From the NCBI GenBank assembly GCA_011192005.1, contig DUFB01000049.1:1-32054 (forward strand): DNA of 32,054 nucleotides, in the 5' to 3' direction. Source of the stretch: Dehalococcoidia bacterium. GTDB taxonomy: Bacteria > Chloroflexota > Dehalococcoidia > Dehalococcoidales > RBG-16-60-22. The notes under the pieces are model-generated. The model was not told the origin of the DNA and did not search any database. It saw nothing but the letters and a program-made list of their open reading frames with translations. Position 1 is the stretch's first letter, and each line of letters begins with the position of its first letter. Shown piece by piece: positions 2,813 through 20,237 of this stretch. The position numbers and the translations under genes were made by a program.

Positions 2813-3600
2813 ATATAGATAAAACAAGAATGGCCGAATTATTGCGTAATGATAGGTATCCGCGTTCGGACAAGTACGACCCCGAGTGGGTACTGCAGGG
2901 ATGGATGGGCCCCAACGTGCTCTGGCTGACGGAGTGGCTTTGTGAGAGGATGGAGTTCAGGCCCGGTATGCGTGTGCTGGATATGGGCTGCGGCAAAGCG
3001 CTGAGCTCGATATTTCTGGCGAAGGAATTCGGCGTGGAGGTCTGGGCTAACGACCTCTGGATACCCGCCACCGAAAACTGGCAGCGCGTCAGGGAGGTGG
3101 GACTCGAAGACCGGGTGTTCCCCATTCATGCTGAAGCCCACGAGTTGCCCTACGCCGATGAATTCTTCGATGCCATTATCAGCCTGGACTCGTACCAGTA
3201 CTACGGCACCGACGACCTCTATCTGGGTTATTTCTGCAAATTCGTCAGGCCCGGTGGGCAGCTAGGTATCGTTGTTCCGGGGCTGATGCGGGACTTCGAT
3301 GGCCCTTTACCCGAGCACCTGACCCGTATTGTCGCCGACGGTAAGCCATTCTGGGAGCCGGAATGCTGGTGTTTCCATACCGCCGATTGGTGGCGGCAGC
3401 ACTGGGGGAAGGCGGGCCTGGTGGATGTGGAGGTGGCTGATGTCCTGCCGGATGGTTGGAAGGATTGGGTACAATATGAAAAAGCTTGTGGTGAGGCCGG
3501 TACGCTTCTCTTCCCTTCCGAGGAAGAAACCCTTGTCGAAGATGCCGGTCGTTACCTGGCCCTAGTACGCGTGGTGGCGAGGAGGCAGAAAGATGGGTAA
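2809..3600 (+). CDS. SAM-dependent class I methyltransferase
   Basis: Motif I VLDMGCGKALSSIFLA; DAIISLDSYQYYG; FVRPGGQLGIV. RBS AGGAG upstream. Confidence 0.85.
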   Translation: MNIDKTRMAELLRNDRYPRSDKYDPEWVLQGWMGPNVLWLTEWLCERMEFRPGMRVLDMGCGKALSSIFLAKEFGVEVWANDLWIPATENWQRVREVGLEDRVFPIHAEAHELPYADEFFDAIISLDSYQYYGTDDLYLGYFCKFVRPGGQLGIVVPGLMRDFDGPLPEHLTRIVADGKPFWEPECWCFHTADWWRQHWGKAGLVDVEVADVLPDGWKDWVQYEKACGEAGTLLFPSEEETLVEDAGRYLALVRVVARRQKDG

Positions 3601-4681
3601 ATCACCTCAGGGGATTCTACATCAACTGGGCTGGAACTCCTTCTTCGAAGATGAATTCCGTCGCCTGCAATCGGAAGAATGGCAACCATGCCGGGTTATT
3701 TCCCAGCAGAGGGATTCCTGCACGGTACAGGGTGAAAGTGGCGAGTTGAACGTCACTTTAGCCGGCCGGCTCCGCTATCAGGCTGATAACGCCGATGCCT
3801 ATCCGGTCGTAGGCGACTGGGTGGCGGTGACGGTCTCGCCCCGCGAGAAGAAGGGCATTATTCAGGCTATACTACCCCGGAAAAGCAGTTTCATGCGTAA
3901 AGCGGTCGGAGGTCCTACGCGGGAACAGGTCGTCGCCGCCAATGTGGATACGGTATTCCTCGTCAGCGGACTTGACGGCGGGCGGAACTTCAATCTGCGC
4001 AGCATCGAGCGTTACCTTACGGTAGCTTGGAACAGCGGGGCGCAGCCCGTGATTGTCCTCAACAAGGCGGATGTCTGCGAGGATGTCCCGTCACGTGTCA
4101 ACGAGGCTGAGTTCGTCGCTTCGGGCGTTCCCGTTCATGCCGTCAGCGCCCTTACCGGGCTGGGGCTGGAGTTATTAAGTGATTACATTGTTTCGGGTAG
4201 TACCGTGGCCCTGCTGGGGCGGTCCGGTGTCGGTAAGTCGGCCATCATTAACGCCCTGCTCGGCGAGGAACGCCAGGCGGTCCGGGAGGTTCGCGAAAGT
4301 GACCGGCGCGGTCGACATACCACCACCCGTCGCGAGCTTATCCTTCTCCCCTCCGGTGGCGTGGTTATCGATACGCCCGGCATGCGCGAGATTCAGCTCT
4401 GGGGCGAGGAGAGCGCCCTCGGTGACGCCTTTGATGATATCGAAAGACTTGCCGGTGATTGCCGTTTTGCCGATTGTCGGCACGATACCGAACCCGGTTG
4501 CGCCGTCCGGGAGGCAATCCAGCGCGGCGATATTGACGATGCCCGCTTTCGGAGCTACCTCAGACTCAAGCGCGAGTTGATGTTCCTCGAAGCGCGCCGC
4601 AACGACCGTGTCCGCATCGAGGAAAAGGAAAGGTGGAAGAAAATATCGCAGTGGGCAAAGCGGCTCAAGAAAGATAGATAG
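3593..4681 (+). CDS. rsgA: Ribosome small subunit-dependent GTPase RsgA
   Basis: Circularly permuted GTPase order: NKAD, then GRSGVGKS, then DTPGMRE. C-terminal Cys/His zinc motif CRFADCRHDTEPGCAV. Overlaps the upstream gene by 8 bp. Confidence 0.93.
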   Translation: MGKSPQGILHQLGWNSFFEDEFRRLQSEEWQPCRVISQQRDSCTVQGESGELNVTLAGRLRYQADNADAYPVVGDWVAVTVSPREKKGIIQAILPRKSSFMRKAVGGPTREQVVAANVDTVFLVSGLDGGRNFNLRSIERYLTVAWNSGAQPVIVLNKADVCEDVPSRVNEAEFVASGVPVHAVSALTGLGLELLSDYIVSGSTVALLGRSGVGKSAIINALLGEERQAVREVRESDRRGRHTTTRRELILLPSGGVVIDTPGMREIQLWGEESALGDAFDDIERLAGDCRFADCRHDTEPGCAVREAIQRGDIDDARFRSYLRLKRELMFLEARRNDRVRIEEKERWKKISQWAKRLKKDR

Positions 4682-17874: not shown

Positions 17875-17904
17875 TTGACCATTGCTACCGCCTTCTGCTA
17901 TCAT
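17875..17904 (+). promoter_or_regulatory. Predicted promoter of the ATP synthase operon
   Basis: TTGACC (17875-17880), 18-nt spacer, TATCAT (17899-17904), about 28 nt before the ATG at 17933. Confidence 0.5.
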
Positions 17905-17932
17905 TTTCTTGGTCACGAATTTTGAGGTTGGC

Positions 17933-18160
17933 ATGAGCAGGTGGGCAGCGGCTCTGAGGCTGACGGGTATCGGGTTTTTTATAGCTGCCTGTATCCTGGG
18001 TGGTATTCTCGCCGGCCTCTGGATAGATAACAAGCTTGATACAAGGCCTTTATTCATATTGCTCGGTTTAGCGGTGGGATTGGCGGTGGCTTTTACTGGT
18101 GTTTATCGTATGATTCGGTTGGTCATCGACAACAGACAGGACAAGGAGAATAACCAGTGA
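17933..18160 (+). CDS. AtpZ/AtpI-like membrane protein
   Basis: Two TM segments, FIAACILGGILAGLWIDNKLDTRPLFILLGLAVGLAVAFTGVYRMI, immediately upstream of atpB. Start at 17933 has upstream GAGG. Confidence 0.8.
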   Translation: MSRWAAALRLTGIGFFIAACILGGILAGLWIDNKLDTRPLFILLGLAVGLAVAFTGVYRMIRLVIDNRQDKENNQ

Positions 18161-19218
18161 CTCAGCCCAAACGCCGGGGCTGTCTCGGCTGTTCTTTCCC
18201 TGTATTAGTCATTATTATCATTGTCTTCCTGGCTTTGGGTATCTTTGGTTTTCTCTCCGGAGCTATCGGACAGGAATTATTGCAAAAATACGGCGTCGAT
18301 ATCAAATTCCCCGACTGGATGGTTATCGGTCAGCCCGAACCCCACCTCCCCGCCCCGGTTCTCTTCAACGTGTTCGGCATACCCATCACCAATACCCTCA
18401 TCGCCAGCTGGATAACGGTGGTTCTCCTGGTTGTTATCAGTTACGTCGTCACCCGCCGCATGAAGATCATCCCGGGCAGGCTCCAGACCCTCTTCGAAAG
18501 CTTTCTCGGCTGGATTTTTGACCTCTGCAAGAGTATTGCCGGCGATAAAAACGCCCGTCGTTTCTTCCCCATCATTGCCACCATTTTCCTCTATGTTCTC
18601 CTCAATGCATGGCTCAGCCTGATACCGGGCTACGGCTCTATAGAGTACACCGAATACGAGCCGGTCGCCACCCATACAGAAGAGCTCCCTGCTGGCGGTC
18701 ATGAAGGAGAATATACTATCGTCACTAAAGACGGCGTCGATTATATTGAGCACAGGCATGAGCTTATCCGTGGTGCCAATACGGATGTCAATACGCCCCT
18801 GGCCATCGCTATTATCTCATTCGTTGTCGTCGCCTATTTTGGCTTGACTTCCCTCGGCATGGGCTGGCTCCGCCAGTATTTCAACTTCGGGCCGTTGTTC
18901 CGCAGCCTCGGCCAGACATTTAAAGGCAAGCTCAACGTCATGGGGATTTTCTCCGGGGCTATAGATATTTTCGTGGGCTTCCTGGAACTGCTCAGCCGTT
19001 TTATTACGATTATCAGTTTTACTTTCCGTCTCTTCGGCAACATGACTGCCGGGGAGATACTGCTGTTGATAACAGCCTTCCTCGTTCCCTGGGTGCTGGC
19101 GATACCTTTCTATGGCCTCGAGATACTGATTGGTTTTGTCCAGGCGTTTATCTTCAGCGGGCTAACCCTTGTCTTTATTACCATGGCGGTAACGCCGCAT
19201 GAAGCAGAAGCACATTAA
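18157..19218 (+). CDS. atpB: F1Fo ATP synthase subunit a
   Basis: Conserved FTFRLFGNMTAGEILLL and GFVQAFIFSGLTLVFITMA. Confidence 0.95.
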   Translation: MTQPKRRGCLGCSFPVLVIIIIVFLALGIFGFLSGAIGQELLQKYGVDIKFPDWMVIGQPEPHLPAPVLFNVFGIPITNTLIASWITVVLLVVISYVVTRRMKIIPGRLQTLFESFLGWIFDLCKSIAGDKNARRFFPIIATIFLYVLLNAWLSLIPGYGSIEYTEYEPVATHTEELPAGGHEGEYTIVTKDGVDYIEHRHELIRGANTDVNTPLAIAIISFVVVAYFGLTSLGMGWLRQYFNFGPLFRSLGQTFKGKLNVMGIFSGAIDIFVGFLELLSRFITIISFTFRLFGNMTAGEILLLITAFLVPWVLAIPFYGLEILIGFVQAFIFSGLTLVFITMAVTPHEAEAH

Positions 19219-19242: not shown

Positions 19243-19485
<243 letters not shown>

Positions 19486-19521
19486 AAATTCTCATTATAT
19501 GGAGAATAGAGGAGTATTAAC

Positions 19522-19632
19522 ATGGAAGAAAGTGGGATACCAGTATTCATTACCGTAATTGCTGCCGCGGTGATGGTTATTGCCGTCATCGTCGGTATGG
19601 CAGCCATCTCCTGGGTATTCCTCACCGGTTAA
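19522..19632 (+). CDS. Unannotated 36-aa single-TM small protein within the atp operon
   Basis: MEESGIPVFITVIAAAVMVIAVIVGMAAISWVFLTG*; GAGGAG 7-8 nt upstream of the ATG; lies between atpE and atpF; too short for the supplied ORF track. Confidence 0.6.
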   Translation: MEESGIPVFITVIAAAVMVIAVIVGMAAISWVFLTG

Positions 19633-19718: not shown

Positions 19719-20237
19719 GTGGGTGATTTATTAACGGAACTCGGAGTAAATGGCGGTGTGCTGATAACGCAGCTAGTGACTTTCATCATCCTGCTGGTTA
19801 TCCTGCGCTTTGTCGCCTATAAACCCCTGATGCGTATGCTCGACGAGCGCTCGAAGCGCGTCAAGGAAAGCATGGAGCAGGCCGAATCTGTCAAGGAGCA
19901 GTCGGCCCATGCCGAGGAAGAGGTGAAGAAGCAGCTCGTCGAAGCCAGCCGCGAAGGACAGGAAAGAATTGCCAGGGCGGTTAAGGCTGGCGAGGAGATG
20001 AAACAGAAGGCGCAGGAAGAAGCCAGACATGAGGCGGAAGCGCTTATCGAACGGGCGCGCGGTGAGATTCAACGGGAGCGTGATGAGGCTATCGGTGAGG
20101 TACGCCGTGAGTTCGCCGACCTGACGGTGCTGGCGGCGGGCAAGGTCATCGAGCGCACTCTGGACAAGGAAAAACACCGCGAGCTTATTGATAAGGTTCT
20201 CGAAGAAAGCTCAACTGAAAAGAAGGAACAACCGTAA
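19719..20237 (+). CDS. atpF: F1Fo ATP synthase subunit b
   Basis: N-terminal TM plus long charged helix. The in-frame GTG at 19719 follows GGAGG; the track start at 19686 falls inside the hairpin and lacks an RBS. Confidence 0.9.
   Translation: MGDLLTELGVNGGVLITQLVTFIILLVILRFVAYKPLMRMLDERSKRVKESMEQAESVKEQSAHAEEEVKKQLVEASREGQERIARAVKAGEEMKQKAQEEARHEAEALIERARGEIQRERDEAIGEVRREFADLTVLAAGKVIERTLDKEKHRELIDKVLEESSTEKKEQP

Follow-up and report, generated by a model that had tools for sequence, protein, structure and literature searches.

A conserved single-helix peptide gene between atpE and atpF in Dehalococcoidia and its possible link to the ATP synthase c-ring

Genetic context of the small ORF

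The window analyzed in this study, meaning the whole stretch of 32,054 nucleotides of contig DUFB01000049.1, is a 32-kb contig of a Dehalococcoidia assembly (2.1 Mb, about 80% complete), and it carries on its forward strand an F-type ATP synthase operon in canonical order, with one small ORF (sORF) in the series ATPase_gene1, a, c, sORF, b, delta, alpha, gamma, beta, and epsilon. The operon head encodes a two-transmembrane (TM) ATPase_gene1 protein of the AtpZ/AtpQ type (17882–18160; PF09527, E = 1.5e-13), followed by atpB for subunit a (18157–19218; PF00119), atpE for the 76-aa subunit c (19255–19485; PF00137, E = 7e-19), which from its column associations is the likely partner of the sORF, and atpF for subunit b (19719–20237; PF00430, E = 2.5e-28), with a likely GTG start and GGAGG upstream; delta, alpha, gamma, beta, and epsilon were named from their sequences. 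In subunit a of the window (18157–18800), an additional N-terminal hydrophobic segment and a charged insert between the usual helices, at about residues 165–210, were further observed.

The sORF (19522–19632, forward strand) encodes a 36-aa membrane peptide with the signature M-x3-G-[ILV]-P and one helix predicted at residues 8–35, and a Shine-Dalgarno (SD) sequence, GAGGAG, lies upstream (19510–19515). A preliminary description of this DNA had reported a 36-aa ORF with SD, ATG, and one hydrophobic helix in the slot between the c and b genes, and both points hold, the translation of 19522–19632 being exactly MEESGIPVFITVIAAAVMVIAVIVGMAAISWVFLTG followed by a stop, with Pfam matches for both flanking genes. 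In the window, 36 nt separate the stop of c from the sORF, and 86 nt separate the sORF from the GTG of b at position 19719. The preliminary description expected standard annotation to miss the sORF, which falls below a cut-off of 60 aa; since the usual gene-calling programs admit ORFs of about 90 nt and longer, the 111-nt sORF may nevertheless already be present as “hypothetical” in some records.

Conservation of the coding sequence

We searched for atpE in 60 relatives and inspected the c–b gap of each. The named relatives with a similar atpE were Dehalococcoidales/Dehalococcoidia MAGs of the Chloroflexota, and CP070729.1 (Dehalococcoidia bin423; L101) has a copy of the sORF. The same sORF peptide was also present in a locus labelled Deltaproteobacteria (L063; JAUVYB010000033.1), which is probably a mislabelled Dehalococcoidales MAG. 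The preliminary description had proposed that a genuine gene should recur as a short TM ORF between atpE and atpF with dN/dS below 1, and that its disruption in close relatives would speak against it; in fact, a 35–39-aa relative occupied the slot in 26 of 26 same-family genomes with an identified atpE, and pooled dN/dS was about 0.16 (pairwise counts), denoting purifying selection. In 11 pairs, the nonsynonymous share of changes was 0.43 against 0.74 expected under neutrality (p = 3e-27), and the closest useful pair, the window and L007, differed by about 18.5 synonymous and 5.5 nonsynonymous changes.

All copies start 9–60 nt past the c stop, and an SD-like tetramer was detected upstream in each of the 58 examined. 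Members of the family share the signature M-x(2-4)-G-[ILV]-P, after which comes a hydrophobic helix of 28 residues; in an alignment of 48 rows P7 is invariant, while conservation of M1 and G5 reaches 90% or more. Hence, the sORF is both encoded with the Fo genes and conserved as a protein, as would be asked of an Fo accessory gene. Since it is short, a chance ORF had to be considered, and length, SD, and hydrophobicity alone would have left this doubt standing; it is removed because the same slot, the same signature, and purifying selection recur in many genomes. Moreover, the SD accompanies all copies, and no similar frame occurs in the c–b gaps of sORF-negative genomes. On conservation and dN/dS a chance ORF was therefore rejected, being extremely improbable, and the sORF is almost certainly a real, conserved protein-coding gene.

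A position between c and b, genes of strongly different stoichiometry, would suit a leader peptide or spacer whose sole effect is on atpF translation, the peptide itself having no role. However, it is the amino acids themselves that are conserved, with dN/dS of 0.16 over 35 codons, which makes this reading highly unlikely; furthermore, the distance from sORF to atpF ranges from 7 to 109 nt, so there is no fixed coupling between the two, and the sORF is also found where atpF does not follow. A search for Rfam elements returned no match, which both weighs against the leader reading and led us to reject an RNA element.

Distribution across genomes

Within the class Dehalococcoidia, the sORF is patchy, occurring in 56 of 134 c–b junctions. 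When its presence in these 134 junctions was mapped on a tree of a, b, and c, 8 changes were required, compared with a mean of 43 after shuffling; the gene has therefore been inherited with some losses or transfers and is not randomly scattered. A profile search of 295 class genomes recovered 27 free-standing full-length matches in 26 genomes, of which 25 adjoin an atpE, and in a draw of 300 genomes from the phylum free-standing full-length matches were restricted to Dehalococcoidia. The sORF was absent from the named loci examined of Anaerolineae, Caldilineae, SAR202-labelled genomes, Patescibacteria, and Clostridia. From the phylum draw and these loci, a general feature of Chloroflexota was rejected, and the sORF is lineage-specific, confined to and patchy within Dehalococcoidia, and not general to ATP synthase operons. 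As far as our searches reach, it is a genuine, conserved, and previously undescribed gene family of this class.

In family f9, the sORF is absent and the c–b gap is 22–24 nt; f9 is presumed to represent Dehalococcoides and Dehalogenimonas, so that the lineage’s cultured genera appear to lack the gene. Because many Dehalococcoidia, apparently including cultured ones, do without it, the sORF is not essential to ATP synthase. Junctions negative for the sORF had a short gap or one without an sORF remnant, and decayed copies sought in the long c–b gaps of sORF-negative genomes were not found.

Two further features of this region were observed. A different single-TM ORF, MIEILQLIWLIVGVLIIVAIGASLGLALFFWLTKER, which lacks the G-[ILV]-P signature, occupies the c–b slot in L141 (G134:C8, after atpE at 42407–42622). 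In family f79 (L132, L136, L137, L145, and L151), a lipoprotein-like signal (e.g., MRQRIGLVVTIISLPLLLSGCDAAG...) lies ahead of the usual anchor helix of atpF, and given this apparent signal subunit b of the family looks as if it would be lipid-anchored.

Properties of the predicted helix

AlphaFold (AF2, with the 48-row alignment) predicted a single helix at residues 8–35 with a mean pLDDT of 93, and a helix of 28 residues would be long enough to cross the membrane and extend one or two turns beyond it. The N-terminal tail is short and acidic, residues 1–6 containing 1.6 D/E on average, and few positive charges occur, 12 of 58 copies having any. Small residues recur about every five positions, at 73 degrees per residue (permutation p = 0.005), and are thus placed all round the helix. 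A helix packing by one face was rejected, since no moment was seen at 100 degrees and the signal lies at 73 degrees. Cautiously, such a pattern would be compatible with a helix enclosed on several sides.

Association with subunit c

In atp operons the sORF always lies directly after c, and this pairing extends beyond them. In two genomes (G047 and G058), the sORF belongs to a stand-alone cassette together with an F-type c gene and a gene for a two-TM protein, and neither a or b nor any F1 gene lies nearby; the two-TM proteins of both had no Pfam family match. The G047 cassette (L049/L238, around L238 5300–5633; G047:C1 about 137.0–137.6 kb) lies beside trp genes in a genome that is a single 1.12-Mb contig and also has a normal atp operon with its own sORF. 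The G058 cassette (L240 around 3570–4217; G058:C58) belongs to a genome (93% complete) in which no F-type alpha was detected, the best match having 27% identity, as V/A-type or otherwise related ATPases would be expected to give, and in which an F-type a subunit was not found. No F-type ATP synthase was thus detected in the genome that carries this c plus sORF cassette; the contig is 12.6 kb long and might be mis-binned. Orphan c genes that neither belong to an atp operon nor have the sORF beside them were also seen (L186:4503–4972, G101:C3, and L066:3001–3231), a two-TM gene preceding the former.

Columns associated with sORF presence (MI > 0.25) made up 9% of subunit c, against 1% of a and 2% of b. 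The top associated column overall was Tyr31 of c, in the inner helix, which is Y or F in 52 of 52 sORF-positive vs. 19 of 69 sORF-negative sequences, and in family f45 position 31 is L or I in genomes without the sORF vs. F or Y in their sORF-positive sisters. Under phylogenetic control, the association of c columns is only a trend, with about 2.7 of 6 pairs in agreement and 0 opposed. Together, the stand-alone cassettes and association statistics that favor c over a and b point towards the c-ring, and the sORF is probably tied to it functionally in some way, in structure or in assembly.

At odds with a strict link to c, two of the 27 full-length matches lie away from atpE and adjoin nuoE/nuoF-type genes (L232:3398–3508 and L234:3–113, both on the reverse strand).

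Proposed role and alternatives

We propose, with about even confidence and on genomic and sequence grounds, that the peptide is a small accessory proteolipid of the ATP synthase rotor, a resident partner at or in the c-ring; among the readings considered this model is best supported because of the pairing with c and the small residues all round the helix. The sORF is probably co-transcribed with the subunit c gene and would be translated just after it. The peptide would then insert as one long helix that leaves a short acidic tail, closed by G-[ILV]-P, on one side of the membrane. It would bind the c-ring, with the lumen of the ring or the opening of the lumen as the likeliest site and a place alongside the ring as the alternative, and may thereby stabilise or seal the ring. 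In other rotary ATPases, the c-ring lumen holds a lipid plug (PMC6896225, PMC12325954). The preliminary description had offered an accessory Fo subunit, a c-ring plug or assembly factor, and a lipid-contact peptide as candidate roles; an extra single-TM gene of the Fo region is borne out by conservation, dN/dS, and synteny, and a role linked to the c-ring, as plug or assembly factor, is favored by the stand-alone cassettes and the c-enriched columns over a role in the stator or in lipid contact.

The nearest rival to a resident rotor proteolipid is a transient helper of c-ring assembly or insertion, similar to UncI/AtpI, that accompanies c monomers or keeps the ring together while it forms, and that is no longer part of the completed enzyme. 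This is a possible, if less probable, reading, and the pairing with c would serve it equally well, also in the stand-alone cassettes of two-TM gene, c, and sORF; a patchy loss would fit a dispensable helper, and UncI, itself a small membrane protein of atp operons, has a role in c-ring assembly (PMC4154653). However, this operon already encodes an ATPase_gene1 protein, and the sORF, which has no sequence relation to UncI or AtpZ, resembles the structural Fo genes in its SD and in its position between c and b, away from the operon head. A place on the stator side, as an accessory Fo subunit packed against a and b and positioned like mitochondrial 8, f, j/6.8PL, and k, seems unlikely. A single-helix peptide within the Fo gene group and adjoining b would be in keeping with it, as would the association of some a columns (307 and 229) with sORF presence, and mitochondrial Fo has several such helices (PMC12325954); it loses ground because copies of the sORF remain next to c at loci without a or b, and because c has proportionally more associated columns than either a or b. 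Finally, the two full-length relatives beside nuoE/nuoF-type genes might suggest a membrane peptide of the wider energy metabolism (e.g., a respiratory complex component) recruited beside atpE and not specific to ATP synthase, but 25 of the 27 full-length matches in the 295 class genomes adjoin atpE, and in one exception, G081, the atpE contig ends right after c and its own slot is unreadable, making this reading rather improbable.

As for the cassettes themselves, it is conceivable, if doubtful, that in some Dehalococcoidia the stand-alone set of two-TM gene, c, and sORF makes a c-ring without an ATP synthase, with a function other than ATP synthesis, in which the peptide would be a dedicated proteinaceous plug. 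These cassettes raise the question of c-ring use without ATP synthase.

The subunit set of bacterial F-type ATP synthases is regarded as minimal and fixed, and in mitochondria the c-ring role of the small Fo subunits is debated. If a conserved extra TM gene is linked to the c-ring, bacteria would have a counterpart of these mitochondrial subunits, and, as far as searches reach, the sORF extends a known machine by a lineage-specific component that has not been described before. Moreover, because close relatives differ in the sORF, a natural comparison with and without it is possible, through which ideas on the filling or sealing of the c-ring, commonly attributed to lipid (PMC6896225), could be tested.

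Comparison with known proteins

Searches of the family against Pfam, NCBIfam, and PDB sequences returned nothing beyond noise, and the sORF as a member of a known family was rejected; profile comparisons were likewise negative for a duplicate of c or of the anchor helix of b. Subunit c (PF00137) is, as the sORF product, a hydrophobic proteolipid, and is encoded next door, but it is a helical hairpin with an RNP-type loop and an ion-binding carboxylate, whereas the peptide is a single helix without an acidic residue inside; no Pfam match was found, and the hhalign probability was below 1%. Subunit b (PF00430) combines an N-terminal TM anchor with a long coiled stalk that the sORF lacks, and the two gave no meaningful profile alignment. 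A survey of F-type loci describes hypothetical intervening ORFs in some lineages, and in its passages covered here the sORF gene is not mentioned; targeted searches of the open-access literature gave no report of such a gene.

UncI/AtpI and ATPase_gene1/AtpZ resemble the sORF product as small hydrophobic proteins of atp operons outside the eight core subunits, and UncI acts on c-ring assembly (PMC4154653). They are longer, with about two TM helices, and are encoded at the operon head, in contrast to one helix of 36 aa in the c–b slot; no member of the 48-row alignment matched PF03899 or PF09527, whereas the operon’s own ATPase_gene1 protein does match PF09527. AtpR (PF12966), for which a role in c-ring assembly has been suggested in N-ATPases (PMC4154653), is likewise an additional small membrane gene in an F-type locus, but it precedes a in loci without delta, while the operon of the sORF is canonical, and no match to it was found among the sORF family. 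The supernumerary Fo subunits of mitochondria (ATP8, e, f, g, 6.8PL, and DAPIT) belong to a different lineage, showed no sequence relation to the sORF in the PDB search, and have dimerisation roles not expected for it; they are nevertheless similar as short single-helix Fo proteins, and the C-terminus of subunit e reaches towards the lipid of the c-ring lumen (PMC12325954).
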